Positions 3,354 through 21,113 of a DNA stretch of 37,560 bases are shown one piece after another (the stretch's first letter is position 1; every line of letters begins with the position of its first letter). The DNA comes from a bacterium (GTDB lineage: Bacteria > B130-G9): contig DATLAJ010000135.1 of NCBI GenBank assembly GCA_035527515.1, forward strand, positions 1 through 37,560. The letters run 5' to 3'. A program made the position numbers and the translations under genes. Under the pieces are notes generated by a model. The model was not told the origin of the DNA, ran no database searches, and was given only the letters and a program-made list of their open reading frames with translations.

Positions 3354-3965
3354 TCAGATGGCCTCTGGTCCAAAGTCAATGATGTCGCGAAGTAGGTGAG
3401 GATGAAGATCTTTGCGAGGATCACATGCCTTATGCAGAAGCCGTTTATTCTTAAGCCCACATGCGACCGTCTTGCCCTTTAGTATGTCGATTTGTTTCTC
3501 TGTCAACGGCAAAGTGATCAGTACGGGGAACCAACGGACCTCAACTTCCCCATTCATTCTTCTCTTAAGACCGCGTAGGATTCTCCGGACTTCTTCAGAA
3601 GTGTGTTTGAATTTCTGGTCGAATTTGGACCTGCCCCGAATGTCTTTCCTTTTGGGTCTTGGGAGTTGACTTCTGATCTCTGCAAGGACAATAGCGATGA
3701 AGGGCTCGCGTCCGTCATCTCGTTCATAGAGTATGATGCAATCACATTTGCGCCTTTTTTCTTTCTGAATCAAAGGCTCGCCCAAAACGACGAATGAGTC
3801 TTCTGGCACCTCTTCGGTGCAGATATGGCATTCGTGTTCCTGGTCACCTGGGAGACGGACGGGTTCTCTACATCCCTCTGGCCTGATCACCTCCTTCAGA
3901 CTCGTGCGATTCTTGAGATAATCCACGGCTCCTTGGCGATCTCTCCTCAATCTACCATTCGTCAT
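3354..3965 (-). CDS. Putative PD-(D/E)XK-like nuclease, partner of the adjacent ATPase
   Basis: 203 residues, highly charged, no membrane segment. Visible marks are HECHIC near residue 43, and a CDCIILYE strand followed about 15 residues later by IAIVLAEIRSQ. Asp on one strand and Glu-x-Lys on the next is the core of PD-(D/E)XK nucleases; here the last residue is Arg (E-I-R), so activity is uncertain. Start ATG 3965 is preceded by AAGGA eight bases upstream and overlaps the ATPase stop by 14 nt, which implies translational coupling; the ATG-less extension further upstream is less likely. With the ATPase it makes a two-gene unit like those of OLD/PARIS/Septu-type defence systems. The family assignment rests on one weak motif and could be wrong. 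Confidence 0.6.
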   Translation of the reverse strand: MTNGRLRRDRQGAVDYLKNRTSLKEVIRPEGCREPVRLPGDQEHECHICTEEVPEDSFVVLGEPLIQKEKRRKCDCIILYERDDGREPFIAIVLAEIRSQLPRPKRKDIRGRSKFDQKFKHTSEEVRRILRGLKRRMNGEVEVRWFPVLITLPLTEKQIDILKGKTVACGLKNKRLLHKACDPRKDLHPHLLRDIIDFGPEAI

Positions 3966-5544
3966 CCAAGTATTCCTTGGGATCGATCTGACGTCTGAGA
4001 TCAACTAGCTCGTCATACATCGCATGGCTAACCTTGACGAATTCCTGCTCGGAGAATCCCTCCTCCGTAACCTCAAGCTCCTCAGTCCGATAGGCTGTCC
4101 CCTTCTTGATCCTGTTGTCCCTCTTGAACAGGTAGGCACCGACCTCATCATGATTGAGATAGACGTCTGGGAGGTCATCTGATTTCTCTTTGAATCGCTT
4201 TGCCCTTAGCTCGCCCCGCAAGATGTAGTTGTTGATCTGCCCAAACAGATAGTCGCTGTGCGTCGTGATGATCAAATTGACGCCCTCCCGGACGAGCTTC
4301 ACAAGGTACTTGGCGAGCACTCTGATATTCGCTGGATGCAGGTGGGCCTCAGGCTCGTCGATGATGAGGGCATCTCCGGGTTTGATTGCATACCTCAAAT
4401 ACAGAAAGAGTGGCGCTAGCTCGGATACGCTTGATGAGGCTCTGTAAAGAGGGATTTTGCCGCCTTCGAACTCATATAGGAAAGTCGGGGGCAGATTCGG
4501 ATGCGCTACTTCCAGGACTATCCGGCCCTGAATCAAATCATCGGACATCTGGATTTCCATCTTGGCAAAAGGTCCTTCTGGTTGAGGCAAATGCGTCAGG
4601 AATGTCATGAAGTTGGAGGTCACGCCAGTTATAGTGGGGATCTCCGATCTCTCGTGCCCGGCTTCGCCCATCTGACGGAAGACGCCCGAAACAAGAGGTT
4701 TATAGACCTCAAGCAAGGCTGATCTGGGGGCGGGTAGGTAGTGGAACTCGCGCTTATGCAACCTCCGCCTCTCCTCACCGAAAGCCTCCAGGAAGTCGTG
4801 CCAAAACCCAAACTGTGCAGTTCGTGCAAGGTGCGCCAGCAAGAAGGCGATCTCCTCATCGTGCGCAAGATCCGCCTCATGCTTGTCATTCGCCACGGCT
4901 TTGATCCTATCGCATATGCTGCTCAGCTTGTTCTCCGCCACAAGGGCATGCAATAGCTTCTCATTTCCCCCAATCCGTATCTCCCCTACATCCGAACCAG
5001 AGTCATACTTGAGATCTAAGTGGCGAGTTCGGCAGAGGAGTTGAAATCGCTTTTGGCCTGATCTAGCGAGGTCGGAGCCTTTCGTGCTGAACGATGTCCC
5101 GATTTGCCCTGCTATATTCTTTCGTAATAGCTCTTGCTGATCATCGAGAAGCTTGGGGAAGAACCGGCTGAGGAAACCGGCTATATCGAGTCCGCCATCC
5201 CCAAATGCGATCAAATCGGGTGCCAGAGACTTGAGGAATGCGTCATATGACTTGAACCATTCGGCTCCGGAGGGATCGGCGGAAAAAGAGAATTGATGAG
5301 AAGCTTTCTCCCTGATTCTCAATACTCGAGCCGGCATTACGGCGTACACGGAGACTATCTGCAAGGCCTTCCACAGCGAATAGAACATCGTCGCTACATA
5401 CGTCTTCCCTGAGTTATTCGGGCCGATGAAGATGGTTAGTGGTTTGAGGTCGATTTCGGCCTTTCGGAGCGGGCCGAAGTTCTCGAGCGTCAGCTTGAGG
5501 TCCAGCGGTTTTGGCTTCGTCTTTTTTTTCTTCTTTGGGCTCAT
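3952..5544 (-). CDS. AAA family ATPase (OLD/AAA_15/AAA_21 type), candidate defence protein
   Basis: 530 residues. A lysine-rich N-terminus leads into LTLENFGPLRKAEIDL, the usual opening strand of RecF/SMC-like ATPases. Walker A is GPNNSGKT at about residues 41-48. The ABC-like signature region begins SSSVSELAPL, Walker B is ALIIDEPEAHLHP near 390, and the H-loop is TTHSDYLF near 427. The middle is alpha-helical and variable. No TOPRIM or nuclease domain is fused, so the small downstream gene would supply the effector. Start ATG 5544 has AGGAGG ten bases upstream; the TTG at 5568 is an alternative. Such stand-alone ATPases with a small partner act as phage-defence sensors in OLD, PARIS, Septu and Gabija families; identity with any of these is not shown. 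Confidence 0.85.
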   Translation of the reverse strand: MSPKKKKKTKPKPLDLKLTLENFGPLRKAEIDLKPLTIFIGPNNSGKTYVATMFYSLWKALQIVSVYAVMPARVLRIREKASHQFSFSADPSGAEWFKSYDAFLKSLAPDLIAFGDGGLDIAGFLSRFFPKLLDDQQELLRKNIAGQIGTSFSTKGSDLARSGQKRFQLLCRTRHLDLKYDSGSDVGEIRIGGNEKLLHALVAENKLSSICDRIKAVANDKHEADLAHDEEIAFLLAHLARTAQFGFWHDFLEAFGEERRRLHKREFHYLPAPRSALLEVYKPLVSGVFRQMGEAGHERSEIPTITGVTSNFMTFLTHLPQPEGPFAKMEIQMSDDLIQGRIVLEVAHPNLPPTFLYEFEGGKIPLYRASSSVSELAPLFLYLRYAIKPGDALIIDEPEAHLHPANIRVLAKYLVKLVREGVNLIITTHSDYLFGQINNYILRGELRAKRFKEKSDDLPDVYLNHDEVGAYLFKRDNRIKKGTAYRTEELEVTEEGFSEQEFVKVSHAMYDELVDLRRQIDPKEYLDDEW

Positions 5545-5607
5545 TCTTTGAGGCCCTCCTTTGTGCAACCGCTTCAGGGTTGATTTCTTATTCTCGTTTT
5601 CACGTTT

Positions 5608-6730: not shown

Positions 6731-7843
6731 CTACGAGCTCTCCCCGGCTGCCATCCGCTCTTGCTTGCTGGCCTTGATTATCTGGAAGAAGGATGTTTTG
6801 CCGACCCAGCACAGGATGAAGCCGAGTATCGTTACGGGGATGATGGACAGGGCCCACAGCATCAAGGCGTAGCTGGTTGCGACCTGCTCCTGAACGCCAA
6901 GCAAGACCATCGCTGCTGCGGCCGCTAGCTGGAATATGCCGATGAACCCCGGCGAGGATGGGAGCATGACGCCGACCGTGAGTATCGCGGTCACGAAGAG
7001 GCCCATGTGGATTGGGAGCGTCAGTCCGAACGCGAGCGAAAGCAGCCATGGGCCGATCGCAATTGTGCCCCAAGTCAGAAGCGACCACACAAAGACATTT
7101 GCTGCCTGAGCTGGCGTGTTAATCGAGGCGATCCCGTCGGAAAAGGAGAGCAGGGCGTCTGTTACTTTACGAATGGCGGTCTTGGGCGCGAAGAAGAGCA
7201 CTTTGGAAATGACGAGCTCTGTTTTTTTTGATGCAAACCGCAAGAACAGGAGTATTGACATGATTCCGAGGTACAGAGCGAGCGTCGAGTAACCGAAGTA
7301 GCGTAGCCTTTGCTGGGTGATAGCCGCGACTATTCTCTGCATTGGCTCGCTCAATTGGGAGGGGTCTGGTGGCTTGGGAAATGCTGTTACAGTGAGCGCC
7401 AAGACGAGGATGGCCAGGACGCAGAAGCCGTCGCAGAGCCGCTCGACGACAATTGTGGCGAAGGTTGATGTTGCGCGGATATTCTCGTTCTTGGCAAGGA
7501 CATAGGCTCGGACGAACTCGCCGGCACGCATTGGGAAGATATTTGAGGCGGTGAAGCCGATGATGGTGGCCGAGAAAGAGGGGCCAACCGTCACGCGCTT
7601 TAGCGGCCTCAACAGAAAGCGCCACCTGACGGCTCTTGCCCAGTAGGTGGTGAAGATCGAGATGAGGGTCAGCAAGAGGAACCCGATTTTGGCCTCCTTC
7701 ATGGTCTTCCACATCTCGCCGAAATCGCACATTCGGATGAAGTAGTAAAGGCAGCCGGCGCTAATGAGAAGGCCGAGAAGGACCTTCCAGTTTCTGGCCA
7801 AAAAGGGCTTTGGTTCGGGAGCAGTGCTTCGAGAGTTCTTCAT
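6731..7843 (-). CDS. UPF0104/AglD-type flippase-like integral membrane protein
   Basis: 370 residues with about eight hydrophobic helices and a short soluble N-terminus. NIFPMRAGEFVRAYVLA near residues 99-115 is the family hallmark (Pro, G-E, R between two helices), and NVFVWSLLTWGTIA and PSSPGFIGIFQ follow in the usual places. This is the lysylphosphatidylglycerol-synthetase membrane-domain family (UPF0104), whose members are thought to move lipid-linked substrates across the inner membrane; the soluble synthetase domain is absent, as in most members. ATG 7843 follows the small upstream gene by 16 bases with no strong Shine-Dalgarno. It is the middle gene of a three-gene leftward operon ending in tatC. 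Confidence 0.88.
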   Translation of the reverse strand: MKNSRSTAPEPKPFLARNWKVLLGLLISAGCLYYFIRMCDFGEMWKTMKEAKIGFLLLTLISIFTTYWARAVRWRFLLRPLKRVTVGPSFSATIIGFTASNIFPMRAGEFVRAYVLAKNENIRATSTFATIVVERLCDGFCVLAILVLALTVTAFPKPPDPSQLSEPMQRIVAAITQQRLRYFGYSTLALYLGIMSILLFLRFASKKTELVISKVLFFAPKTAIRKVTDALLSFSDGIASINTPAQAANVFVWSLLTWGTIAIGPWLLSLAFGLTLPIHMGLFVTAILTVGVMLPSSPGFIGIFQLAAAAAMVLLGVQEQVATSYALMLWALSIIPVTILGFILCWVGKTSFFQIIKASKQERMAAGESS

Positions 7844-7859
7844 CGGGTTTTGCTGGAGA

Positions 7860-8048
7860 TCAGGCCATTTTCAACCCGACGACCCAGAATGCAAAGGACA
7901 TCACAATGATCATTCCCCACAGCAAGCCTTTTCTGGGCAAAAACTTATTATCCTTCGTGAAGGCTGTGAAGATGAACACAATCGTCGAAGTAACCCACCC
8001 GGCGAAGCCTGCTACACACAATGCTGCCCAAATCTGAGACAATCTCAT
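7860..8048 (-). CDS. Small two-helix membrane protein, unknown function
   Basis: 62 residues with two hydrophobic helices (about 8-30 and 42-60) separated by a charged turn with TKDNKFLPRKG. It opens the operon with the flippase-like gene and tatC, only 16 bases before the next start. A TAGGAG sequence abuts the ATG almost directly, which is tighter spacing than usual. I do not recognise the family; the hydrophobic pattern, spacing and strand make it a credible gene. Confidence 0.55.
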   Translation of the reverse strand: MRLSQIWAALCVAGFAGWVTSTIVFIFTAFTKDNKFLPRKGLLWGMIIVMSFAFWVVGLKMA

Positions 8049-8210
8049 TCTCCTAGCGCAATCAGGGAGAGAAACGCACCCGGCACATCCAGTATGACGC
8101 AGAAGTATATGTGCCCGCCGCCTAGGCTGTCAAGAAGTGTGGGACTCCCCAATAATCAGATTGAAGAGGGGAATGTTGCGGCCGCGTCGGGGACGGGGCG
8201 CATGGGATTC

Positions 8211-8253
8211 TGCCCGAAAGGGCACACCACAGGTAGCCGCAGGCGTCAGCCTG
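8211..8253 (+). repeat. GTAG-type REP-like unit, copy C forward
   Basis: TGCCCGAAAGGGCA hairpin (8211-8224), linker, GTAG (8233-8236), then CAGGC-GTCA-GCCTG hairpin (8240-8253). It is nearly the same as 1313-1353. Confidence 0.68.
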
Positions 8254-8292
8254 ACGGTAAAAGAGAGCTCCTATGCCGCGAGGATAACCCTC

Positions 8293-8339
8293 CCGTTGCA
8301 TTGCATGCACGGCTACCCACGGTATCCCCTGTCGGGGAT
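8293..8339 (-). repeat. GTAG-type REP-like unit, copy C reverse
   Basis: On the minus strand: perfect ATCCCC-GACA-GGGGAT hairpin (8339-8324), short linker, GGGTAGCC, then a bulged 7-bp stem (8312-8293). It is the inverted partner of 8211-8253 within the same element. Confidence 0.66.
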
Positions 8340-8586
8340 TGCAGCCTCGCTCCCTCATTTACACCCGCCAAGTAAAGGAAGCAGCAGTCCGGACTGCAAC
8401 ATGAACTCATCTATCTACGTGTCAGGCAACTTCAAGAGACAACTTCGCGCACGGTCAATCTGACTATTGGGGACTCCTCGGTCAAGGGTCGAGGCGAGAT
8501 TTACCTTGAGTTTTCAACCTCCGCTTACGATAAGGCTTGCCGGTTATAGTAGATTTTTTAGCTGTTGAAACAGATGAGGGACTGTT

Positions 8587-9420
8587 GTGCTGAAGACCTG
8601 GAACTACGGAGGGGTCATCGTCCTTGAGTTGGGCGGTGTTGTCAACGTAACTAACACGCGGAACATCTTCGGCCAGATAAAGCACTTGGTTGAGGACCCG
8701 TCCGTCCATAGGATCGTGTTCGACATGTCAGGCGTGCTTCGGGTTGACAGCTCAGGCCTCGGACTACTCGTCAGGATAGCCAAGACGCTCCAGGCGCACA
8801 ACGCGCAGCTGTGCTTGGCGGGCGTTTCAGGTCCAGTTGCAGAGGTTCTCGAGCACACTGAACTTGATCGTTTTTTCAAGATGGCCCAAGACGTCGATGA
8901 GGCGGTCGAGATGTTGGAGCGCGACTCAGGGTCAGGCCACGCCGGCAACTTCATTCCCGATCGCCGGTCTGGTGAGAATCTGGCGGATGGCTTCAGAAAA
9001 CTCCTCAGGTCCATCAGCCCAACGGTATCTGACGACGAGATCAATGATCTGATAGCGTCAATACAGCAGCTGGAGAAGTGGGAGAGCATGATGGGGCTTT
9101 TGGTCGAAGCTTATGATAAGGACCTTCTGGCGAAGGCGGACGAGATCGCAACCAAAAGACTCTCCGTCATACGTGAGGTTGCGATCGGTTTGAGCCACGA
9201 AATTAACAATCCCTTGACAGTAATCCTCGCGACGAGCGAGCTGTTGGAGAGAAAGCTCTCCGGCGGCGTCGAAAACGGCGTCCTACAACGACTCAGGTCG
9301 ATCCAGTCGCAGTGCGAGCGCATCAAGGAGATCGTGGCGAAGGTCTCGGCGATCGTTAAGCCCGTCTCAAGTGAATACTACTGCGGGATGAAGATGATCG
9401 ACGTCCACAAGTCTGCCTAG
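8587..9420 (+). CDS. STAS-HisKA protein without a kinase ATPase domain
   Basis: 277 residues. Residues 1-110 are a STAS domain of the anti-sigma-factor antagonist type, with VDSSGLGLL near 54-62 giving the usual phosphorylatable Ser. Residues about 190-260 are a HisKA dimerisation helix pair with GLSHEINNPLTVIL; the phospho-accepting His is near 205. The frame stops soon after, and no HATPase_c domain is present or recoverable in the 121 bases before the next gene. It may act as a phosphotransfer intermediate or need a partner kinase such as the one at 10737. GTG 8587 has GAGGG six bases upstream. The function is inferred from domains only. Confidence 0.8.
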   Translation: MLKTWNYGGVIVLELGGVVNVTNTRNIFGQIKHLVEDPSVHRIVFDMSGVLRVDSSGLGLLVRIAKTLQAHNAQLCLAGVSGPVAEVLEHTELDRFFKMAQDVDEAVEMLERDSGSGHAGNFIPDRRSGENLADGFRKLLRSISPTVSDDEINDLIASIQQLEKWESMMGLLVEAYDKDLLAKADEIATKRLSVIREVAIGLSHEINNPLTVILATSELLERKLSGGVENGVLQRLRSIQSQCERIKEIVAKVSAIVKPVSSEYYCGMKMIDVHKSA

Positions 9421-9559
9421 CCTGCGCCTCACTCCTCTGATATGACCGCACCTGCATTAAGGGTGCAGCAAGCGGCACCCCTTGTGATTTCATAGCGCCT
9501 TCGATCTTTCCTCATTTTCTCATGTCCATTCGTCCCCGTCCGTGGTTGAATCAGCTCTT

Positions 9560-10744
9560 ATGGAACGCATACCTCTGTCAAATGAGCCAGCAGGACTCAC
9601 CCGCGTGCTGCGGGTCATAACGCAGCTCTCTCGCGGTGGGGTCGAGGCGAAACTCGCGTCGCTTCTGCCGCTCTTGCGAGACCGGGGCTTTGATGTGGCA
9701 GTCTGCTGCATCAAGGAGGCAGGCTCGCTTGCGGGGCGACTCGCCCAGGCGGGGGCACGCGTTCACGTCTGCCGCGTTCGCTCGCGCCTCGACCCGGTCG
9801 GGATTTTCGGCCTCGCCCGGTTCATCAGGCGGCAGCAGACCGACATCGTCCACACGCACATGTACGCAGCGAACATCACCGGGACGCTCGCCGCGCGCCT
9901 CGCCGGCGCTCCTGTCATTATCTCGAACGTTCACAATGTTGGGAAGTTCCGAACGAGGCGCCAGGTTATTCAAGATCGGTTCGTGGCGCGTTTTCGCGAC
10001 GCAACCGTCTGTGTGTCTGAACGTGTGAAGCAGGACTATCTGGAGGCTACTGGTCTTTCAGGACGAGACATTGTTGTGATCTATAATGGTGTTGATACTG
10101 AGAGATTCAGGCCCCGTGAGCTCTGGCGTGCTGGGAAGCGCAGCCCAAGCAGCGAGGTGAGAGCCCAGCTTGGGATCGGAGATGACGAGCAGCTCGTGGT
10201 TGCTGCTGGCCGGCTCATCCCACAGAAGAGACCTGAGCTGCTGCTCTCGGCTTTTGCAATTGTCCATGAGTCGCAGCCCGGGACGCGGCTGTTGGTTCTT
10301 GGGAGCGGCGAGCTTCACGATTCGCTCGTCGAGCTTTCGAGAAAACTTGGGATTGCGCACGCCGTCATATTCGCGGGTTACCGCAAGGACGTGGCCGAAT
10401 GCCTTGCCGCCTCGGACGTATTTGTGTCATCCTCAGCAAAAGAGGGCTTCTCCAATGTGCTGTTGGAGGCGCTGGCCACGGGACTTCCGGCGGTTGTAAC
10501 CGACGTCGGCGGCAACCGGGAGGCGGTTCGGGACGGCCAGGAGGGATTTCTGTGCGAGCCGTGCGCGGAGGGGCTTGCCGAGCGAGTTGTGCGCATTTTG
10601 ACCGATGCTGAGCTTCGGAAGGAAATGTCGAGAAACGCAAGGAGCCGTGCGATGGAGTTCGGATTGGAGCGGATGGCGGATCAGACCGCGGCGCTTTATG
10701 AGCGGCTCCTTTCGCGGGGAATAGAGCGGGCGTCAGATGGATAA
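9560..10744 (+). CDS. GT4-family glycosyltransferase
   Basis: 394 residues with a GT-B fold. The N-terminal Rossmann domain has TQLSRGGVEAKLASLL near residues 15-30 and DIVHTHMYAANITG. The C-terminal domain has NGVDTERFRP, AAGRLIPQKRPELLLSAF and the E-x7-E donor-binding motif KEGFSNVLLEAL near 293-304, then GLPAVVTDVGGNREAV. GT4 enzymes are retaining transferases that use a nucleotide sugar to build polysaccharide or lipid-linked glycan; donor and acceptor are unknown. No Shine-Dalgarno separates ATG 9560 from an upstream GTG at 9542, so the start is uncertain. The stop overlaps the next start by 8 nt (ATGGATAA), so it is coupled to the histidine kinase. Confidence 0.93.
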   Translation: MERIPLSNEPAGLTRVLRVITQLSRGGVEAKLASLLPLLRDRGFDVAVCCIKEAGSLAGRLAQAGARVHVCRVRSRLDPVGIFGLARFIRRQQTDIVHTHMYAANITGTLAARLAGAPVIISNVHNVGKFRTRRQVIQDRFVARFRDATVCVSERVKQDYLEATGLSGRDIVVIYNGVDTERFRPRELWRAGKRSPSSEVRAQLGIGDDEQLVVAAGRLIPQKRPELLLSAFAIVHESQPGTRLLVLGSGELHDSLVELSRKLGIAHAVIFAGYRKDVAECLAASDVFVSSSAKEGFSNVLLEALATGLPAVVTDVGGNREAVRDGQEGFLCEPCAEGLAERVVRILTDAELRKEMSRNARSRAMEFGLERMADQTAALYERLLSRGIERASDG

Positions 10745-12659
10745 CACGTTTGTTTTTGTGGCCGATCTCATGCTGCGAGGATTGACCACGTTCTTCTACG
10801 AATTAAGCGGCATGTTTTTCTCCCACTTCATACAATTCATGTTCGCCGTCCTGATCCTCGTGATGGTCAACATCGAGCGCAAGCGGACACACAGTAGGGA
10901 GTACACCTATCTGACGCTCGGGTTCATAGTGCTGATGTCCCAGGAGTATCTCAACTGCTCGGTCTTGGGTCTGCGAGTGATCGCTCACCTCTCTCCGGTG
11001 GAGCAGTATTCCGTCCTGCTAGATAGAGTGCTGGAGCTTTTCGCGCTGATAATCCTGACTACGGCCTTTCTGTATCCGGTGACCAGGCGGAAGATGTTTC
11101 TGCAAAAGATCATGGTCTATAACCTTCTATCCGCTGTCGGTATATCGCTGGCGGTGTTTGTCTCGTTCCATTTGCAGCAGCCACCTGTCGCCTTCGCTCT
11201 TCACTGGGGTTGTTGGCTCATCGCATCTCTCGATCTCGCGCTTCTGGCTGCGATCGTGTTCTACACCCTACTTGCGGGACGCAAATCGACGTGGCTTATC
11301 GTCGCTGCCGCATTGCTGTGGGCATTCGCGCAGGCGTGCATATTGCGGAACGTTCTTGGGTTCGAGGGCCGAGATTCTACGCTTGTGATGCTCAGCGAGA
11401 CCGTCCCGATCTTCGTCTATGCGCTGCTGGTTCTCGCCATCTACAGGCAAATAGCCAGGCAATACATTAGCTTGCACCTTGCCACCCTGAAGAGCAAGCA
11501 GCGACTACAGGCGATTTTTGACGGCATAACTGATGGGATAATCACGCTGGACAAGAACCTGGGAGTCCTCAACGTAAACGAGAGTGAGCAGAGACTCCTG
11601 GGCCTTCCGGTAGAAGAGATAGTTGGCAAAAAGTGCCACGAGCTTTTCCAAAGAGGCGACCGACCATGCCCAAACTGCCCAGCGCTCACCACGCTCAGAT
11701 CAGGTAAAAAGGCCTCCGCGGCGTTTCATGCTCCGAGGAAGGAGGGCGAGGAACCCTCGTTCCTCGAGGAGGAGGTGTTTCCGCTCTTCAACCAGGAGGG
11801 CGAGGTCGAGCAGGTAATACTTTACATCAAAGACACCACCGACCGGCACAAAATCGAGGACCGCATGAGGTCGCTCGATCGCCTCGCAGCGGTCGGCGAG
11901 ATGGCAGCTCGGATAGCACACGAAATTCGCAACCCACTTGAGGCGATAAGCGGCTCCGCTGAGTATCTCGGCCAGACAGTAGATAGCGACTTGGTCAGGG
12001 AGTTCACCAAGATAATACGTGACGAGTCCAGGAGGCTTTCCAGCCTCACGAGGAATCTGCTCGACTACTCGACCCGCATCAACCTGAACCCCAAACTGAG
12101 CAACATCAACTACCTCGTAATGGATACCAAAAAACTCTTGAAGACCGAGTTCGACGAGGCGCAAGCAAAATTGAAGCTGCAACTTGACAGAGACCTGCCG
12201 GACACTCTCTTCGACCCCGGCCTGATCAAGCAGGTCCTGATAAACCTCGTAATCAATTCATTGGAGGCCGCGAAATCACCGGCCGTGGTTGTTTTGGGCA
12301 CGCGCCTCAATCGCGACGGGCTCGGCGTCGGCGGGGCAGAGGGCCAAGAGCCGGTGGTGAGCGAGTTTATGTCGCTTGGCCCCGCACATCAGGTCGTTGG
12401 AGACGACGGACTGAAGGCCCGGAAGCACATCGCAATATACTGTCGCGATTTCGGCAAGGGGATGACTGAGAAGAGCATCGAGACCATCTTCAACCCATTC
12501 GTTACGAGCAAGGCCAAAGGCTCTGGGCTGGGACTTGCCACGAGCGAGAGGATTGTCTCGGAGCACAACGGGATGATCGAGGTCTATTCGCGCCTCGGCA
12601 AGGGGACGCTCTTCGTGGTCAGGTTGCCGTTCATAAGGGATGTGAACAGTTTCGGCTGA
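10737..12659 (+). CDS. Membrane sensor histidine kinase with PAS domain
   Basis: 640 residues. About 1-235 form seven to eight membrane helices of a 7TM-like sensor. A PAS domain starts near 252 and carries a Cys cluster (CHELF about 301, RPCPNCPAL about 310-315) that could bind metal or respond to redox. HisKA has RIAHEIRNPLEA with the acceptor His near 395. HATPase_c has the N box LVINSLEA near 502, DFGKGM near 571, and FNPFVTSKAKGSGLGLA near 580-600. It should autophosphorylate on His for a response regulator not in this window. Start coupling to the glycosyltransferase suggests control of envelope glycans, which is inference. Its last 76 bases overlap the convergent gene at 12584. Confidence 0.94.
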   Translation: MDNTFVFVADLMLRGLTTFFYELSGMFFSHFIQFMFAVLILVMVNIERKRTHSREYTYLTLGFIVLMSQEYLNCSVLGLRVIAHLSPVEQYSVLLDRVLELFALIILTTAFLYPVTRRKMFLQKIMVYNLLSAVGISLAVFVSFHLQQPPVAFALHWGCWLIASLDLALLAAIVFYTLLAGRKSTWLIVAAALLWAFAQACILRNVLGFEGRDSTLVMLSETVPIFVYALLVLAIYRQIARQYISLHLATLKSKQRLQAIFDGITDGIITLDKNLGVLNVNESEQRLLGLPVEEIVGKKCHELFQRGDRPCPNCPALTTLRSGKKASAAFHAPRKEGEEPSFLEEEVFPLFNQEGEVEQVILYIKDTTDRHKIEDRMRSLDRLAAVGEMAARIAHEIRNPLEAISGSAEYLGQTVDSDLVREFTKIIRDESRRLSSLTRNLLDYSTRINLNPKLSNINYLVMDTKKLLKTEFDEAQAKLKLQLDRDLPDTLFDPGLIKQVLINLVINSLEAAKSPAVVVLGTRLNRDGLGVGGAEGQEPVVSEFMSLGPAHQVVGDDGLKARKHIAIYCRDFGKGMTEKSIETIFNPFVTSKAKGSGLGLATSERIVSEHNGMIEVYSRLGKGTLFVVRLPFIRDVNSFG

Positions 12660-15600
12660 CTGGGCCAGCCCCGCAGACCACCAAGCGTCGCGGACACCGG
12701 CCCATGTGCCGTCCATTTGCCGCTCGTGTCGACGTCAACCAGCCAGTAATCGTAGCTGACGCCCGCCTCGACGTTGCGGTCAACGAATCTGTATGAGGCG
12801 CCCGAGGCCGCCGTGCCCTCCGCTGCGATCAGATCGCCCACCTGCACGTAGTCGCTCGCGCCCGCAATCGCCCGATAGATAAGGAAGCCGGCGTTGTCGA
12901 TCTCGGCGCCCGTCTGCCAGCGCAGCACGATGCTTGAGCCATGCGGCCGCGCCTCGAACGACACGAGCTCGATGTATGTGCAGCCGTGATATTCATAGTG
13001 GTAGCCCATATCAACGGTGTTGATGTCTAGAAAGCCGTTTACAGCGGTCGAGTATTCCTCGTTGTCCGCTCCGCCGAATGGATCGCTGCTGGGGTCTCCG
13101 GCGTCGATACATAGACTCCACTGAGCCTCGGGCCATCCGGCGCCGTCGTTCTCCTGCTTCAGGAAATACCCGTCATAATTGGTTTCCCCACCTCGTGAGC
13201 AGAATCGTGGGTCATTGTCAATGTTCCCAGTGCCTGCCCAGCCACCTTGAACATCGGAGTATGTGACTGTAACAGAACCGGGGCCGGCGATCTCGTCGGG
13301 CGAATTGCCCCAAAGAATCGAATTCTTCACCTCGGGTTCACAATCAGTATCCGCGTAAACCGCACCGCCACCATTAGCATTCGAGGCGCTGTTGTCAGCT
13401 AGGGTGCAGTTTCTGATAATCGGTGAGGATGGGGCGTACCCTGAACCAGTGCCTCCTTTGGAGCAGTATATACCACCCCCAGCGCCCTCAGTATCACCAT
13501 CACCGTATTTCTCACCGGTTGCTTGATTCTGTTTGATGATGTTGTTTGTGATCGTCGGAGAGCTGTTGTCTAAGCAGCATATTCCGGCCCCGGCGCCGCA
13601 GGAGCGCTCTATGGAGTTGCTAGTGATTTGGTTGCTGTGAATCGTCGGCGATGACTGATAGCAGTATATGCCGCCGCCATATATTTCGGCCACGTTCCCC
13701 GCTATGATGTTGTTTTCAACGGTGGGGGAACTATACTCGCAGCAAATTCCGCCTGAGTTGCCAGTGATTTCGTTGCTTCTGATTGTGGGCGAACTTTCCT
13801 CGTTGCAGTATATCCCGCCCCCGGCGCCGCTGGAGCGCTCTACGGAGTTGCCAGTGATCTGGTTCTTCTCAATCATGGGCGAGCTGTTGTCCAAACAGCC
13901 TATCCCGGCGCCACACATTTCGGCCACGTTCTCCGCTATAGTGTTGCTGTCAATCGTCGGCGATGACTGATAGCAGTATATGCCGCCACCATAGCAGTAA
14001 GCGCTGCCGGAGGCCTCATTGTGTATGATATTATTCCCCGTGATCGTCGGATTAGAATAGGCGAAACAGGATATCCCGCCACCATGGCGTTCCGCGCAGT
14101 TGTGAGTAATCGTGTTATTTTCAATACTCGGCGAACTCAAATAGCAGCAGATTCCGGCACCCTCAGCACCTGATGTGTTCTCGCTGATGACGTTGTGTGA
14201 AATCGTCGCAGGACCGCTGCTGCCTAAGTATATGCCACCGCCGTAGCTATACGGCGATGAGCTTTCTGTTACGAGATTACTTGTGATAGTGTTGTTGGTG
14301 ATCGTCAGGTAATCGCAGGCGGCGCAGAAGATTCCGCCACCTTTATACCTGGCAGTGTTGGAAATTATGGTGTTGTTCTGAATCGACACCGAACAAGACC
14401 AGGCGCAGTATATGCCCCCGCCAGTCTTGTCGGGAGCACTGGTACTGTCTGCCCGGCCTCCTGTTATCGTAAACCCTTCTATCGTCAGGTCGTTCACCGT
14501 ATCGCAGTAGATCACATGATATGCGTCATCCTCCGCGTCAAGGATCGTTGTGTCTCGGTTCTCGCCCAACAGCGAGACCCAGCTCTCCATATAGAGGGGG
14601 AACGTCTCCCCGTTGTATGGGGGGGTTGAGGCGGCATAAGTGCCGGCCGCGACGTGAATGGTGACGGGTTCCGCCTCGCTGCCGGAAACAGTGTCAAGCG
14701 CGTGAGTGATTGTCTGCCAGGGGCCGTGGGTCCCGTCGTACGTCGGGCGCATCCCGTCATAAGAGTCGCTTCCGCTGTCCCCGTTCACATAGTAGCTGAC
14801 TGGGTAATCGCCTATGGCATACAAGACACCGTCAGGATTGACGCAATATAGCGTCCCATCCTCTCCAAGGGATGGACCGAGCATCCATCCCACTCGCCCG
14901 GCAATTTCTAATGACCAGAGCAATGTGCCGTCCGGCTCAATCGCCCATGCCGTTCCGTCATCGCCATTGCGGGTGCAAAAGAAGACAACACCGTCATCGT
15001 CGATTATTGGAGACGATGCGTGACTTTCTCCTGTATCATAGGACCATTTCAGGCTGCCGTCAGGCCATAAGGCGCTCACTTTGCCATTATAGTCGCCAAC
15101 ATAAACCACCCCATCCTCGCCTAGTGCCAAAGATGTATGGACCCGAACGCCGACGTTGTAGTCCCAGATGATCGATCCGTCGGCTGGGTCAACGGACCAT
15201 ACGTGACCGTTATACCCGGTCGGCACGTATAGAATGCCCTCTTCGTCAATGGTTACAGTAGCCCAGCCCATATTTGACTCTGAGATCTTCCACTTCTGGG
15301 TCCCGTCCGGATTGATGGCATAAAGCCCACCGCTGTAATACGAGCTGATATAGATTGTGCCATCTGCAGCCAGCGCTGGGCTGGCATCAACATCACAAGC
15401 AGCCGTGAAGGACCATTTCACGGTTCCGTCGGGGTTGAAGGCGTAGAGACGGTTGTCGACAGATCCGACATAAACTGTCCCATCCGCGCCGATACTTGGG
15501 GCTGAGCAAACGCGGTCTCCCGTGGTGTAACTCCACTTAAGCGTGCTATCACTATTGATAGCGTAGAACTTATGATCCCTTTCTCCCCCGACGTATAAGG

Positions 15601-15949
15601 TGCCATCTTGCGCCACTGCCGGGTCTGAGTAGTAGAATCCCCCGCCCGGGGCGTCATAGGTCCAATGCAAAGTGCCATCGGAATCGATGGCGTAGAACGT
15701 CCCCGCATAGGTACCCAAATAGACAATGGAATCCGGACCGATAGCCGGCGAACAGGCTACCTCTCCGTCGGTTTGGTAGGTCCACCTTATTGTGGGGCTC
15801 TTTGGTCCTCTGTGAGGACTGCGACCTGTATGTTTCGGGTTCATCTGGTGCATCGGCCACACGTCGTCAGCCAGGGCACCCGTCACCATGATCGCGAGGA
15901 CCGTGATCATGGTAGCGAGCGTCAACGTCATCTCTCGTCGTAAAAACAT
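12584..15949 (-). CDS. Large secreted protein: PQQ-like propeller plus parallel beta-helix
   Basis: 1121 residues. A signal peptide (about 1-27, ending GALADD) is followed by eight repeats of about 43 residues with DGTLYVG and YAINSDGTLKW patterns, forming a PQQ-like beta-propeller (to about 385). A DUF1565-like linker, YYVNGDSGSDSYDG, leads into a right-handed parallel beta-helix (about 440-960). Its coils repeat GGGIYC, SSPTI and NNTI(T/I), and Cys recurs at the same coil position. A fibronectin-III-like domain near 1000-1105 has VLRWQTGAEIDNAGF. ATG 15949 has AAGGAG seven bases upstream. No sorting signal is clear at the C-terminus. Probably a cell-surface or released binding protein; no enzyme site is recognised. 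Confidence 0.88.
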   Translation of the reverse strand: MFLRREMTLTLATMITVLAIMVTGALADDVWPMHQMNPKHTGRSPHRGPKSPTIRWTYQTDGEVACSPAIGPDSIVYLGTYAGTFYAIDSDGTLHWTYDAPGGGFYYSDPAVAQDGTLYVGGERDHKFYAINSDSTLKWSYTTGDRVCSAPSIGADGTVYVGSVDNRLYAFNPDGTVKWSFTAACDVDASPALAADGTIYISSYYSGGLYAINPDGTQKWKISESNMGWATVTIDEEGILYVPTGYNGHVWSVDPADGSIIWDYNVGVRVHTSLALGEDGVVYVGDYNGKVSALWPDGSLKWSYDTGESHASSPIIDDDGVVFFCTRNGDDGTAWAIEPDGTLLWSLEIAGRVGWMLGPSLGEDGTLYCVNPDGVLYAIGDYPVSYYVNGDSGSDSYDGMRPTYDGTHGPWQTITHALDTVSGSEAEPVTIHVAAGTYAASTPPYNGETFPLYMESWVSLLGENRDTTILDAEDDAYHVIYCDTVNDLTIEGFTITGGRADSTSAPDKTGGGIYCAWSCSVSIQNNTIISNTARYKGGGIFCAACDYLTITNNTITSNLVTESSSPYSYGGGIYLGSSGPATISHNVISENTSGAEGAGICCYLSSPSIENNTITHNCAERHGGGISCFAYSNPTITGNNIIHNEASGSAYCYGGGIYCYQSSPTIDSNTIAENVAEMCGAGIGCLDNSSPMIEKNQITGNSVERSSGAGGGIYCNEESSPTIRSNEITGNSGGICCEYSSPTVENNIIAGNVAEIYGGGIYCYQSSPTIHSNQITSNSIERSCGAGAGICCLDNSSPTITNNIIKQNQATGEKYGDGDTEGAGGGIYCSKGGTGSGYAPSSPIIRNCTLADNSASNANGGGAVYADTDCEPEVKNSILWGNSPDEIAGPGSVTVTYSDVQGGWAGTGNIDNDPRFCSRGGETNYDGYFLKQENDGAGWPEAQWSLCIDAGDPSSDPFGGADNEEYSTAVNGFLDINTVDMGYHYEYHGCTYIELVSFEARPHGSSIVLRWQTGAEIDNAGFLIYRAIAGASDYVQVGDLIAAEGTAASGASYRFVDRNVEAGVSYDYWLVDVDTSGKWTAHGPVSATLGGLRGWPSQPKLFTSLMNGNLTTKSVPLPRRE

Positions 15950-16449: not shown

Positions 16450-18351
16450 TTACAGGTAGTTCAGGAGGGTAACCTGATTCAGTATTCTGGCGCCCACCGC
16501 CAACGATGTCTGGTAGGCCAGCTCCTCCTGCTGGAGTTGCGCAATCGCCTCCACCAGATCTACTCCCTGCACCTGGTCAAGCTGTCCCTTCATCAGCGTC
16601 TGATAGTCAAGCAGGTTCTTCTGGACCATCTCCATGTATTGCAGCGTGGAGCCGACGAGCGATTCGGTCTTGATGAGATCATTTATGCTGTCATCCAGCG
16701 CCGCCGACTCGCTTCTGTCGCACCGGAGGTCAAGCGTGAACGAATCGCCGGCCTCGAGCGTGCCTGGGACCCCGGAGAACGATACCTGGACGCCATCGGC
16801 TATCAATATGCTCTCGCCGGAGGAGTACGCCTCGCCAACGTCGATCGTCTTGATGACCTCGCCGGTCGCCTCGTCAGTTACGGTGATCGTCAGGCCGTCA
16901 GTCTGGCCGACGAGGCCGCCCTCGTCGCCGACGGTAAAGACCCACGTAGCGTCGTTAGCGCCCGTGTAGTAGCCGTCTCTGCTGACCGATGCGGTGCTGC
17001 CGCTAGCCCAGTCAGATGGGCTGAATATCTTGGACTGAGTTACTCCCGCGTCGATGTTCCGCGCCAGACGATTGAGAGTGTCCAACACGGCAGTGCCGTC
17101 AGTCTGGCCGCTTGACATACCAAAAAAGCTCTTCAGCGTGTTGGCGCCAGTGCTCAGATCGTTCAGGACGATCTTACCGGGGATGCCCTCGGAGGTAGGC
17201 CGAAGCCTGAGATGCCCCTGAGCATCGAAGCTCGCACTTATGAAGACCTCGTCGTCGTGTTGGTCGCCCTCGCCGATGAATAGGCCGGCCTGATCGAGTA
17301 GATTTAGAACGTCAGATTGCGTGTATGAGACGCCCTCTGCAAAAGTAATCGTCTTTGTGGTAACCCCATCAGAGATGAGGAACTTCACGTCGCCGCCGCC
17401 GGATGCAAGAGGCGTTCCCTGGACCATATCGATAGTCTCGGTCCCAATGACCGTGTCCGCCTGGAGAAATGTGTGCCCGGCCACATTCACATCTACGATG
17501 AGGTCATCGCCGATCTTGGACTTCACCGCGCCGCTGTTGCCTACGTACTCGAAGCTTCCATCCGGCGTAAAGATCACTCGGAAGGTCTGCACGCCCAACG
17601 CCATGGTCGAGGAGGTCTTGATCCTGATGCCCCTGCCGGTATCTGCCGTCTCGCCGAGGGATACCGTTACTGAGTTTGCCAGATGGTTGTAGCTGGAGAG
17701 GTAGGATGTGTCGTCCTTCGAGTTGTCATCGATCTGGACCGACGAGCCATCGGCGTCCTTCAGCAAGACTGTCGCGTTCTCGCCGTCCGAGGTTACCTCG
17801 ACTGTATAGACGGAGCGCTGAAGTTCAGGAAGGTCGGAGAACTGCGAGCCAATAGTAACATCCTCAACGCCGTCCGGCAGCGAGCCAACCAGCGTGATGT
17901 CTCGCTGTAGCCTGACGAACGGCTTGGTCGATGTCTTTGTGCCAGAGAACAGGTAGCGATTGTTCTGGGAGCGGTTGGCCAGTGAGATGAGCTCGTCGAT
18001 GTAGCCGTTCACGGCTTGTGAAAGGCCTTCTCGTGCTTCGTCCGAAGTGGAGTCGCTCAGGGCTATCATCGCTTTTTCCAGCGACTGCTGAACAAGGTCC
18101 GAGCCCTCTTGAATGCTGCTCTGAGTCGTCTGAGACCACGCAGAGGCCATGTTCACGTTCGCCATGTACCCCTCAATCCTCGACACCGCCGTCGTGTACC
18201 GGAAAATCCGCGCAAGCCCACTGGGGTCATCAGACGGCTTGTTGACCCTCTTGCCGGATGCTATCTTCAGATTGAGTTCATTGAGCCGTCCGTATTGCTG
18301 CTCGGCCCTAGTGAGAAAGTCCTGAACCATCATGTTCCGTGTAACACGCAC
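16450..18351 (-). CDS. flgL: Flagellar hook-associated protein 3 (hook-filament junction)
   Basis: 633 residues, about twice the usual FlgL length. The N-terminal D0/D1 helices match the flagellin/FlgL family (VTRNMMVQDFLTRAEQ, KIASGKRVNKPSDDPSGLAR, NRYLFSGTKT), as does the C-terminal helix (VDLVEAIAQLQQEELAYQ to ILNQVTLLNYL). The extra length is one long central beta-rich insertion (about 170-560) that would face outward. It joins FlgK to the filament. GTG 18351 has AGGAGG seven bases upstream and starts 12 bases after the flgK stop. It is the last gene of the operon; the csrA-fliW pair that often follows is absent. Confidence 0.93.
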   Translation of the reverse strand: MRVTRNMMVQDFLTRAEQQYGRLNELNLKIASGKRVNKPSDDPSGLARIFRYTTAVSRIEGYMANVNMASAWSQTTQSSIQEGSDLVQQSLEKAMIALSDSTSDEAREGLSQAVNGYIDELISLANRSQNNRYLFSGTKTSTKPFVRLQRDITLVGSLPDGVEDVTIGSQFSDLPELQRSVYTVEVTSDGENATVLLKDADGSSVQIDDNSKDDTSYLSSYNHLANSVTVSLGETADTGRGIRIKTSSTMALGVQTFRVIFTPDGSFEYVGNSGAVKSKIGDDLIVDVNVAGHTFLQADTVIGTETIDMVQGTPLASGGGDVKFLISDGVTTKTITFAEGVSYTQSDVLNLLDQAGLFIGEGDQHDDEVFISASFDAQGHLRLRPTSEGIPGKIVLNDLSTGANTLKSFFGMSSGQTDGTAVLDTLNRLARNIDAGVTQSKIFSPSDWASGSTASVSRDGYYTGANDATWVFTVGDEGGLVGQTDGLTITVTDEATGEVIKTIDVGEAYSSGESILIADGVQVSFSGVPGTLEAGDSFTLDLRCDRSESAALDDSINDLIKTESLVGSTLQYMEMVQKNLLDYQTLMKGQLDQVQGVDLVEAIAQLQQEELAYQTSLAVGARILNQVTLLNYL

Positions 18352-18363
18352 CTAAAAGCCCTC

Positions 18364-20082
18364 CTAACCGCCAAGTTCCTGAAGCACCGTGTTGATCATC
18401 GAATTGACGACGGACACGAAATAGGCCGCGCTGTTGTAGGCCTGTTGATATACGATGAGGTTCGCCATCTCCTCATCGATCGAGACACCTGCGGTCTGCT
18501 GCTTAAGACCATCGTAATAGTTGACGTTGTCCGTCTCCCGGTTCACCTCGAACTCGGCTGAGGCGCTCTCGTTGCCGGCCCGGGTAACGACCGAGTTGAA
18601 AAAATCGCCAAACGTCGCCGTCCCGTCATTCAACAACTGCTTATCCGCAAGCATCGAGAGCAACAACGCATTCTCACCGTCCCCAGACGTGAACGTCGCC
18701 CCCGCAGCAACGAGCGTTGGGTCTTCCGCAACCGCATCCGCCACCTGAATGTCGGATGAGTCAAATCCCGTAAGCAGGACGTTCACGCCAAGCTGCGCAA
18801 GCACACCACCGGTGTCTTTTCCAACCACGAACTCGTGTCCGTCATCGCCGGTGATCTGAAGGCTGTTCTGAGAGATGCTCGCCGTCAAATACGTCGTTGA
18901 GGAATTGATCCTGTCCACGACGTCCTGAAGCGAGTCCGTGTTGGGGTCCACCGCAACTGTAACGCTCTGAACTATCTCTCCATCCTGGGTGATCGTGATG
19001 TTAAACGTCCCTGCCTCCGAATCGTAGGCCAGGTTCGAGCCGCCCTCGAGATTCAGAGCGTCGTTTAACGCAATCGTTGAGCTATAGACCGAGTAAGCTC
19101 CTGTTACGCTCGTCTGGTCCCGAAGGGCAAAACCCATGCTGTGCGCACGGTTGACGGTCTTCAGCAGCGTTGTGGTGAGCTCGTCGAGGTCGGCCATGTA
19201 GGAGACGACCATCTCGTCCCGAGCCTCGAGGTCGGCGCCGAGCCTCCCACCGGCTATGCGTGAAGTGATGTTGTGCTGAGAGTTACCGTCGTCGAGGTAA
19301 ACATCATAAAGGCCGTTGTTGTCAACGTTGTTGCGGCAGACAAGCGTGTTCCGCTGGTCAGCACTGACGAGCGTGCGGTTGTCCCCAACGAAGATAGTTA
19401 CTCCGCCCCTGTCGTCCTCGAGCATGTTGAAATCAATGAGCTTCGAAAGCTCATCCAGCGCCTCGGACCGGCGGTCAATAAGGTCGTTTGCGTGGGTCAT
19501 CTCGCCGCCGGATGCGGACGTTATCCCGACGTTGAGCTCGGCTATCTTCTTTGCCAAGTTGTTGATCTGCTCAACGGTTTGGCTGACCTCGTCGTTTGCG
19601 AAGGTCCGCTGATCCGAGAACCTGGCGTTCTGCGCGCGGATTGCGCTCGTCAGGCGATCTGCCGTCTGGACCAGGTTCTGCCTCTCTGCGGCGCCTTCAG
19701 GGCTGTTGCCAACCTGCTCGCACGACTGCCAGAACTCGGTCAACGTATCGCCAAGATGCTGGGCATTGGTCGAGACGAGCGATTGCTCGATCTCAGAGAT
19801 GAAGGAGTGCTTTCGCTCAGCGAAAGCCAGCAGACCCTTGTGTAGATTGGCTTTCGATATAGCATACTCGTCGCGGTATTGCATAATCTGCGTGATGTCT
19901 GTGCCGGTGCCAATCTGAAGCAAGCCCAGCTGCTCCGGACTGGATGACGAAAACACCGCTGACTGCCGCGAGTAGTTCGGCGTGTTGACGTTGGCGATGT
20001 TGTGGCCGCAGATGTTAATCGCCGTTTGCTGGGCCGTGAGGGACCTGACGCCGATATTTAGAAGAGAAAAAATGTCGCTCAT
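18364..20082 (-). CDS. flgK: Flagellar hook-associated protein 1
   Basis: 572 residues. The N-terminus LLNIGVRSLTAQQTAINICG and NIANVNTPNYSRQ is the FlgK rod/hook signature; the C-terminus VSIDEEMANLIVYQQAYNSA is the matching D0 helix. FlgK forms the first hook-filament junction ring, exported by the flagellar type III apparatus without a cleaved signal. ATG 20082 is preceded by AAGGAGG. It lies between flgN (its predicted export chaperone) and flgL, the standard order. Confidence 0.96.
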   Translation of the reverse strand: MSDIFSLLNIGVRSLTAQQTAINICGHNIANVNTPNYSRQSAVFSSSSPEQLGLLQIGTGTDITQIMQYRDEYAISKANLHKGLLAFAERKHSFISEIEQSLVSTNAQHLGDTLTEFWQSCEQVGNSPEGAAERQNLVQTADRLTSAIRAQNARFSDQRTFANDEVSQTVEQINNLAKKIAELNVGITSASGGEMTHANDLIDRRSEALDELSKLIDFNMLEDDRGGVTIFVGDNRTLVSADQRNTLVCRNNVDNNGLYDVYLDDGNSQHNITSRIAGGRLGADLEARDEMVVSYMADLDELTTTLLKTVNRAHSMGFALRDQTSVTGAYSVYSSTIALNDALNLEGGSNLAYDSEAGTFNITITQDGEIVQSVTVAVDPNTDSLQDVVDRINSSTTYLTASISQNSLQITGDDGHEFVVGKDTGGVLAQLGVNVLLTGFDSSDIQVADAVAEDPTLVAAGATFTSGDGENALLLSMLADKQLLNDGTATFGDFFNSVVTRAGNESASAEFEVNRETDNVNYYDGLKQQTAGVSIDEEMANLIVYQQAYNSAAYFVSVVNSMINTVLQELGG

Positions 20083-20101
20083 TGAGGCGCCTCCTTCACA
20101 G

Positions 20102-20620
20102 CTACAACGTTATTGACGATGTGGGAGACTGTCCACCAGTACTCAGCCGGCCCTTAGAAGAATATGTCGAGGGCGGATTCTGAGGCTGTGTGATCATTCG
20201 GACCATGTGTTCAACGTAACCCATGGACTTCTTCAGCAGCTCTTGTGTCCTTAATCCCGACTCGCCGGCGCTTTGGGCCGCGAGTCGGTGCTCCTCAAGC
20301 CGGCTCGCCAAGACGCAGGCCCTCTCGTCATCATTTCCCAGAAGGTATCCCGGAAGCTGGTTCATTGTTATCCTGCCGCGATCGATCTCCGCCGTCTCGC
20401 AGACAGCTCTCATCGCCTGCTCGGTAGCCTGCGCCGCAGACGAAAGGTCTTTTTGAAGCCCCCGCTTTTTCTTGGTCATGCGGTCAAGAGCTTTCACATC
20501 GCCGCTGATCACGAGCTTTCGCTCGGCAGTGAAAAGTTCTGCCAGACTATTGAGGATGGCCGTCTCGGCCTCGATCGATTCGGCCAACTGATCAAATAAG
20601 GGGTAGATGGAGGGTAGCAC
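20102..20620 (-). CDS. flgN: FlgN-like export chaperone
   Basis: 172 residues, almost wholly alpha-helical, with charged heptads (LAESIEAETAILNSLAELF, MTKKKRGLQKDL) as in the FlgN family, which bind the C-termini of FlgK and FlgL before export. Sequence identity within the family is low, so position between flgM and flgK is important evidence. The start is GTG 20620 with AAAGGAG seven bases upstream. The last 25 residues are Ser/Gly/Pro-rich and probably disordered. Confidence 0.85.
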   Translation of the reverse strand: MLPSIYPLFDQLAESIEAETAILNSLAELFTAERKLVISGDVKALDRMTKKKRGLQKDLSSAAQATEQAMRAVCETAEIDRGRITMNQLPGYLLGNDDERACVLASRLEEHRLAAQSAGESGLRTQELLKKSMGYVEHMVRMITQPQNPPSTYSSKGRLSTGGQSPTSSITL

Positions 20621-20718
20621 TATATGCTCCTTTCGTCCATTAGTCTGAGACGTCAGTTGGGCTTCGGGACGTTAGGAACCGGCCTAAGTGCTAAACCACC
20701 GACAAGTGTGCTCGAGCG

Positions 20719-20736
20719 AGGTCTGAAATCAGACCT
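20719..20736. other. Palindrome across the flgM stop codon
   Basis: AGGTCTGA-AA-TCAGACCT, an 8-bp perfect stem overlapping the flgM stop (TGA 20731-20729). No T-run follows on the minus strand, so it is more likely an mRNA-processing or partial-attenuation hairpin than a strong terminator. The 108-base flgM-flgN gap holds nothing else recognised. Confidence 0.35.
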
Positions 20737-21055: not shown

Positions 21056-21113
21056 CCTATTGTCCAACCTCCTGCACTTTCCCGGTGCCACCACATCCAT
21101 ACTACCAATGTCG

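Follow-up and report, generated by a model that had tools for sequence, protein, structure and literature searches.

A STAS domain fused to an ATPase-less histidine phosphoacceptor domain: a conserved bacterial protein and putative phosphotransfer or phosphatase module

The gene at 8587..9420 on the forward strand of the window (the whole stretch of 37,560 nucleotides that was analysed) encodes a protein of 277 residues, P0001, in which a STAS domain of the anti-sigma-factor-antagonist type is joined to a HisKA-type phosphoacceptor domain without the ATPase domain of a kinase. This fusion, pointed out in an earlier note on the same DNA, is real as judged by Pfam and conserved as judged by orthologues in three relatives. 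We refer to the ATPase-less HisKA-type phosphoacceptor domain with its C-terminal tail as DHp*, a name coined here, and to the gene as STAS-DHp*. With a probability that we put at about one half, STAS-DHp* is a putative dimeric phosphotransfer and/or phosphatase module in the manner of Spo0B, ChpT and PhyT, gated by its anti-sigma-antagonist STAS domain. The leading idea is that its presumed phosphoacceptor is fed from elsewhere.

The reading frame begins with a GTG codon and is delimited by ORF, Pfam and orthologue evidence. The STAS domain occupies residues 7-106 (8605..8904, +; PF01740, E 5.6e-21, 74.7 bits against a cut-off of 22.6) and also matches TIGR00377, the anti-sigma-factor antagonists, with 62.1 bits against a cut-off of 53.45. 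Foldseek groups its fold with TM1442, SpoIIAA and RsbV (1vc1, SpoIIAA 1th8 and RsbV 6m36, TMt about 0.9), and the best 50 rows for the full model are almost only STAS-type matches. D54-S55 aligns with SpoIIAA (1th8_B), which places Ser55 of DSSGLG (8749..8751, +) where the phospho-serine of SpoIIAA lies. With a fold of the antagonist kind and a serine that follows an aspartate, the domain is of the RsbV/SpoIIAA type. HisKA (PF00512) matches residues 201-253 (E 1.7e-10, 41.2 bits against a gathering cut-off of 26.9), within a DHp* helix pair that spans residues 173-258 (9103..9360, +) according to Pfam and the two alignments described below, and the presumed phosphoacceptor, His204 of H-E-I-N-N-P, is encoded at 9196..9198 (+). 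Up to E 1, the Pfam matches of P0001 are STAS, STAS_2, HisKA and one sub-threshold match, with no HATPase family among them. P0001 is thus not an orthodox sensor histidine kinase, and it has what characterises an ATPase-less HisKA protein, namely HisKA with the conserved histidine behind a regulatory N-terminal domain. Since the next gene begins at 9542, 121 bases past the stop codon, there is no room for a hidden ATPase.

AlphaFold2 (44 aligned rows; mean pLDDT 90.9, pTM 0.51) models, in this order, the STAS fold, a linker that is disordered at residues 119-129 (8941..8973, +; pLDDT below 50), a short helix, one long helix of residues 149-224 (9031..9258, +) in which a signalling helix is predicted to continue as DHp helix 1, a second helix of residues 230-254 and a C-terminal hairpin. 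The two modelled helices and the Pfam score together are those of a HisKA phosphoacceptor domain. Only 23 residues remain after the second helix, the hairpin included, and they hold the conserved tail Y..G..MID(V/L) (9361..9417, +), modelled as a beta-hairpin (strands 261-264 and 268-271, with a mean block pLDDT of 95) in place of a kinase's continuation into its ATPase.

Around the gene, Rfam finds no RNA element in the whole window at gathering scores nor in 7844-8586 at E up to 1, and a promoter scan of 7800-9700 reports none close to the start codon of STAS-DHp*. A weak terminator-like stem lies downstream of the gene at 9461-9480, and a hydrophobic ORF of 62 residues, possibly a membrane protein, lies upstream at 7853-8048 (-). 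Two other parts of the window deserve mention in their own right. Overlapping genes at 3354-5568 (-) encode an AAA_15/AAA_21 ATPase, whose best PADLOC matches are PD-T4-4_A, PDC-M47A and AriA, and then a 216-residue protein without Pfam or PADLOC match, a pair that resembles two-gene anti-phage modules composed of an ATPase and a partner. A flagellar run (flgK/flgL-, flgI-, flgH-, flgA- and flgG-like, by eye) extends over 16450-26008 (-), with its gene order conserved in the relative G001.

Three other genomes (G001, G002 and G003) were found in the family of the source genome, G000, which shares its genus with G001, so that the four genomes represent three genera. Among 60 genomes searched at the protein level, with G000 one of them, orthologues are found in all three relatives: one with 73% identity over 277/277 residues in G003, a full-length one with 62% identity in G002, and one with 94% identity over residues 120-277 in G001, where the gene is cut by the start of its contig. 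DSSGLG is kept in G002 and G003, the G001 contig starting downstream of this part. In the eyes of the earlier note, a downstream HATPase_c in relatives would have pointed to a local truncation. It is absent from all three, and the homologues with the same truncated architecture that the note had suggested looking for are found in these genomes, with the C-terminus at the same place in each. No further full-length STAS-HisKA relative was listed, best matches first, for the other 56 genomes of the protein search, and a pattern search through 84,980 species genomes adds none among the best 80 of at least 324 confirmed loci. The dN/dS ratio is 0.05 against G001 over the 158 codons covered; whole-gene comparisons with G002 and G003 have saturated synonymous sites, the ratio over helix pair and tail being 0.05-0.07. 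For the STAS domain, linker, helix pair and C-terminal tail in turn, identity to G003 is 76/110, 29/62, 79/86 and 17/19, and identity to G002 is 66/110, 21/61, 65/86 and 18/19, making the linker (residues 111-172) the least conserved part and the helix pair and tail the most constrained. The observation of an ATPase-less STAS-HisKA protein is thereby confirmed: it is real, conserved and not a truncation.

Judged from sequence, DHp* is a widespread and little-noticed set of domains that mostly keep the histidine without an adjacent ATPase. Alignment A1 comprises 36 ORFs with a stop codon no more than about 30 residues past HisKA, the four orthologues included; the pattern scan used six seed patterns, of which HEINNPLT is one. 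The named contigs among them are assigned to Geobacter, Nitrospirae, Neomarinimicrobiota, CSSED10-310, Calditrichaeota, Gemmatimonad, Zixibacteria, Acidobacteria, Acetofilamentum, Chloroflexia, Rokubacteria, Deltaproteobacteria and one unplaced bacterium. No A1 member (0/36) matches an ATPase profile built from the kinases of the same loci, and all 36 trimmed domains match Pfam HisKA, with no other Pfam family common to two of them. Searching 290 genomes with the A1 profile, scoring the first 16 candidates per genome and then reading further loci, gave matches that reach model position 103 or beyond in at least 51 genomes (the one in G134 being canonical when read) and 98 distinct DHp* ORFs, defined by a match that extends through the tail and by having no ATPase immediately behind it. 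Two ORFs that reach the tail columns (L195 and L211) were dropped because an ATPase follows directly, while L186 stayed among the 98 though an ATPase lies further on in the same ORF. The 36 seed members score 85.8-123.9 bits against A1 and ATPase-bearing ORFs at most 79.0, a gap that is partly built in, A1 having been made from these 36, and that fails for the other 62 of the 98 ORFs, which score 63.1-114.3 bits. P0001 matches at model positions 2-104 with 119.1 bits, again partly built in since it is within A1; with a match through the tail, the tail residues and no ATPase directly after, it belongs to the tailed DHp* set.

Across the 98 domains the histidine is present in 96, a glutamate at H+1 in 86 (glutamine in 6), an asparagine at H+3 in 94 and a proline at H+5 in 95, conservation that is partly built in because HEINNPLT was a seed pattern and A1 seeded the search of the 290 genomes. 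Position H+4 is N in 71, P0001 among them (N208), Q in 23, T in 3 and S in 1; only 2 of 97 kinase rows have Q there. Kinases with an ATPase differ notably at two glycines, at H-8 (91/97 against 22/98 in DHp*) and at H-3 (76/97 against 7/98). Two DHp* proteins (L179:3004-5829 and L184:2275-3819) have an aspartate in place of the phosphoacceptor histidine. The shared tail reads Y..G..[MI].D[LI]: in P0001 numbering, Y264 is found in 83 of the 98, M or I at 270 in 95 and D272 in 89, while position 273 is L, I, V or M throughout. A profile comparison aligns this tail, plus a few extra residues, opposite the stretch that joins the helices of kinases to their ATPase, so that DHp* ends at the point where a kinase's ATPase begins.

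A tree built from the helices without the tail (78 columns; 96 DHp* and 97 kinase rows) requires 4 changes against about 65 in shuffles, and holding the DHp* rows together yields a likelihood 81.6 above that of the free search (AU p 0.954). Given the few columns, the A1-based alignment and the choice of both sets by A1 similarity, the tree, though compatible with a single origin, is no proof of a DHp* clade. Earlier, less clean row sets gave 6 and 7 changes; in the 100-row version, with 7, the best split takes in three kinase rows and leaves out four DHp* rows. A 101-row set had contained five rows from outside the 98, namely L047 ORF 7366 (with an ATPase), L078 ORF 2174 and L199 ORF 2204 (weak) and L178 and L192 (from further reads), all of which the final tree omits. 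The hairpin recurs in the AlphaFold2 model (mean pLDDT 88.7) of a free-standing DHp* of 103 residues (L063), 27% identical to P0001 in the aligned part, as strands 90-93 and 97-100 with block pLDDT of 86-90. Two distant members thus have a tail that is predicted to fold into a beta-hairpin, both models being monomers whose alignments have rows in common. No Foldseek match to the L063 model reaches E 0.001; the first of its weak rows are kinase DHp domains and DivL, with ChpT (4fmt) at rank 20 (E 0.23), and VIA-align Z scores of up to 9.2 are within the chance level for helical bundles. Since the hairpin lies mostly beyond the Foldseek-aligned rows, the fold comparison covers mainly the helices.

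The partners to which DHp* is fused include REC, GAF, PAS and HD, with STAS found only in the G000-G003 family among the genomes searched. The 98 ORFs divide into 34 REC-DHp*, 3 REC-REC-DHp*, 3 REC-DHp*-REC, 3 X-DHp*-REC, 42 X-DHp* whose N-terminus is something else or unassigned (GAF among those scanned, PAS in two), 3 STAS-DHp*, 3 that lack an N-terminal domain (one being the contig-cut G001 orthologue), 1 REC...DHp*...DHp-ATPase and 6 that are open or have a longer C-terminus. Two long proteins of about 1620 residues (L178:893-5779, 1628 aa, and L186:1558-6411, 1617 aa) carry REC, a mid-protein ATPase-less DHp* and, downstream of it, a complete terminal DHp-ATPase pair. G000 itself encodes two further DHp* proteins, a REC-GAF-DHp* (contig C53) and a GAF-DHp*-HD (C75, with H-Q-I-N-N-P). 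The latter layout, seen in L002 (on the G000 contig C75) and L236 (G001), keeps the histidine with glutamine at H+1 and possibly has an HD-type output. Within 1.5 kb on both sides, an ORF with ATPase or REC is found for 16/63 DHp* genes and 39/58 kinase genes, leaving 47/63 and 19/58 without one; most DHp* genes are thus orphans. Six adjoin a gene with an ATPase domain (L019, L046, L117, L210, L226 and L237). At L226:91-2957 a REC protein, a kinase and a REC-DHp*-REC protein lie within 2.9 kb, a compact candidate phosphorelay.

What might such a domain do? Retention of the histidine and of the acid at H+1, together with loss of the H-8 and H-3 glycines, fits a phosphoacceptor freed from the constraints of a self-phosphorylating kinase. 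A dimeric phosphotransfer domain, perhaps one that also dephosphorylates receivers, is favoured by these features, by REC fusions on either side, by the free-standing form and by hybrid kinases without a clear Hpt. STAS-DHp* would then be a dimeric histidine phosphoacceptor making no use of ATP of its own, in which two DHp* helix pairs would form a four-helix bundle displaying His204, and the receiver of another protein would pass its phosphate on to that histidine or be stripped of it there, much as in Spo0B, ChpT and PhyT. The STAS domain, coupled via the one long helix, would set or report the activity of DHp* through binding to an RsbW-type kinase or through phosphorylation of Ser55 by that kinase, so that serine partner switching and a His-Asp relay would meet in one dimer. 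We infer the dimerisation, the phosphotransfer or phosphatase activity and every partner of STAS-DHp*; the bridge between Ser/STAS and His-Asp signalling, as the earlier note had imagined it, is a plausible, putative one. Several observations count against this phosphoacceptor reading: the 47/63 DHp* genes without a nearby ATPase or REC ORF, the orphan state of STAS-DHp* outside one genus, the two rows with aspartate for histidine, and N, T or S at H+4 in 75/98, which also fits a phosphatase. It is possible, though doubtful, that DHp* domains make up an ancient, so far unrecognised family of dimeric phosphotransfer domains without an ATPase, spread over many phyla, in which a conserved Tyr-anchored beta-hairpin replaces the start of the ATPase, and that its fusion here to an RsbV-like STAS lets one dimer couple RsbW/RsbV switching to a His-Asp phosphorelay.

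Genes of the types that such a bridge would call for are present in G000. It has two HATPase_c_2 (RsbW-type) matches over cut-off (on C57 and C170), SpoIIE-type matches, four STAS matches and three or more hybrid kinases that end in a REC, among them those on C164, C81 and C114. No Hpt match over cut-off is found in G000 (95.6% complete, so that absence is no proof), and since G001, G002 and G003 carry 1, 4 and 3 such matches, the idea of DHp* as a replacement for Hpt is weakened. The C170 protein (L262:2933-3850, 305 aa) combines a receiver with an RsbW-type ATPase (REC-HATPase_c_2) and in itself bridges His-Asp and Ser partner-switch signalling. It has a full-length orthologue of 56% identity in G002. 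In G001 and G003 (83% and 86% complete) only receivers match and no REC-HATPase_c_2 orthologue is found, though both have STAS-DHp*, which argues against this protein as the partner. Still, it is a more fitting candidate than the neighbouring kinase discussed below, though in 2/4 genomes, and it is attractive because it offers both surfaces, an ATPase for STAS and a receiver for DHp*. In the boldest form of the proposal, the REC-RsbW-type fusion would be held at two points, with STAS on its ATPase and DHp* on its receiver. The C57 ORF (L261:4903-5754, 283 aa) joins an RsbW-like HATPase_c_2 to an RsbV-like STAS. Two short HATPase frames on C79 (213 and 152 aa) were considered as partners in trans and set aside, as they lie in a cluster that by eye is hydrogenase/NADH-dehydrogenase-like.

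The alternative that survives best, an unlikely one nonetheless, is that of a split kinase, in which the ATPase of a separate full-length kinase phosphorylates the DHp* histidine in trans or in a mixed dimer. Willett and Kirby report that the acid at H+1 is needed only for kinase activity and N or T at H+4 only for phosphatase activity (PMC3510030), and the H+1 acid, as E, is kept in 86/98 DHp* domains. The six genes that adjoin an ATPase gene and the two proteins (L178 and L186) that hold DHp* before a DHp-ATPase pair would fit, and HisKA and HATPase of EnvZ are stated still to function on separate chains (PMC3591291). However, the H-8 and H-3 glycines, nearly fixed and common, respectively, in kinases with an ATPase, are mostly missing, 47/63 DHp* genes have no two-component gene within 1.5 kb, and no kinase is linked to STAS-DHp* in the stretches covered in G002 and G003.

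More unlikely again is a dedicated receiver phosphatase, in which STAS would gate the dephosphorylation of a response regulator and His204 would itself stay unphosphorylated. The N or T at H+4 that phosphatase activity requires and kinase activity does not (PMC3510030) is an N in 71/98 DHp* domains, P0001 included, and a T in 3/98; glutamine at H+1, which phosphatase activity tolerates, is found in 6/98; and Galperin and co-authors raise a phosphatase role for archaeal HisKA proteins without HATPase (PMC5847659). Yet 23/98 domains have Q at H+4, as against 2/97 kinase rows, and the glutamate at H+1, unneeded by a phosphatase, is kept in 86/98. It is improbable that DHp* is purely a dimerisation or signalling helix without phosphochemistry. 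The two members with D for H (L179 and L184) would suit this, as would GAF-DHp*-HD (L002 and L236), where DHp* could be a connector to another output, with H kept and Q at H+1. The histidine is nevertheless kept in 96/98, though the searches favoured it.

The earlier note had proposed as phosphate donor the PAS-HisKA-HATPase sensor kinase encoded at 10737..12659 (+), a claim that synteny does not support. Orthologues of this kinase are present in 4/4 genomes, always directly downstream of a GT4 glycosyltransferase gene (9542..10744, +; Pfam and synteny), its conserved neighbour, and the kinase is not in a conserved unit with STAS-DHp*. The latter adjoins the glycosyltransferase-kinase pair only in G000, 1.3 kb from the kinase, and in G001, close by, that is, in one genus. 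In G003 it follows a radical-SAM-like gene (by eye) and precedes a long gene resembling that at 12584-15949, the contig ending 3.3 kb beyond STAS-DHp*, and in G002 it lies beside a 637-residue ORF without Pfam match. Thus, although the two genes are near each other in G000 and G001 and both occur in the four genomes, the constant glycosyltransferase neighbour and the location of STAS-DHp* elsewhere in two of three genera lead us to reject the kinase as a linked partner and make it very improbable as the specific donor. A locally truncated or decaying kinase, which would indeed leave HisKA without HATPase, can be set aside with near certainty: no decay is seen, the C-terminus is the same in the three relatives, dN/dS is 0.05, and the tail is common to most other aligned ATPase-less proteins.

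ATPase-less HisKA proteins as such are already in print. Archaeal proteins with HisKA and no HATPase have been described as nonenzymatic and histidine kinase-like, with phosphotransfer or phosphatase roles suggested, and most of them can be annotated as histidine kinases (PMC5847659); P2CS has phosphotransfer and incomplete-HK classes (PMC2716373); and among 42417 HisKA proteins in SMART, 1556 lack HATPase, 711 of these with HE/DxxN/T (PMC3591291). DHp* proteins have HisKA without HATPase in common with all of these, and a sensor-type N-terminus and conserved histidine with the archaeal ones. In the parts of the three papers at hand such proteins are counted or listed, and no single family, tail or STAS fusion is described. 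Likewise, neither a tailed DHp* family nor a STAS-HisKA fusion is described in the titles and abstract starts of the papers listed in searches of the open-access literature, with subscription journals mostly outside it. The distinction matters because ATPase-less HisKA proteins can carry the annotation of histidine kinase though incapable of kinase activity. Should DHp* prove to be a single family marked by its tail, members would be separable by sequence from kinases and truncations, and one well-chosen member could settle whether the role is that of a relay, a phosphatase or a partner to another protein's kinase. In one polypeptide, the STAS fusion would directly link serine partner switching and the His-Asp relay, two main logics of phospho-signalling in bacteria.

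Among known systems, Spo0B and ChpT have a DHp-like helix pair with a phosphoacceptor histidine and keep a degenerate ATPase-like domain. DHp* resembles them in the helix pair, the histidine and the want of a working ATPase, but has a short hairpin only. P0001 matches neither the ChpT nor the Spo0B model of Pfam up to E 1 and has no ATPase-like domain. RsbR and the stressosome proteins carry a C-terminal STAS behind a sensory N-terminus, unlike P0001, in which STAS is N-terminal. The likeness to RsbV and SpoIIAA lies in the STAS fold and the DSSG serine; those are single-domain proteins, whereas here STAS is fused to DHp*. Finally, PhyT of Sphingomonas acts as a histidine phosphotransferase between a receiver and PhyR in the general stress response (PMC5898713); it is membrane-bound, unlike STAS-DHp*, and the two are likened by proposed function, not by sequence.
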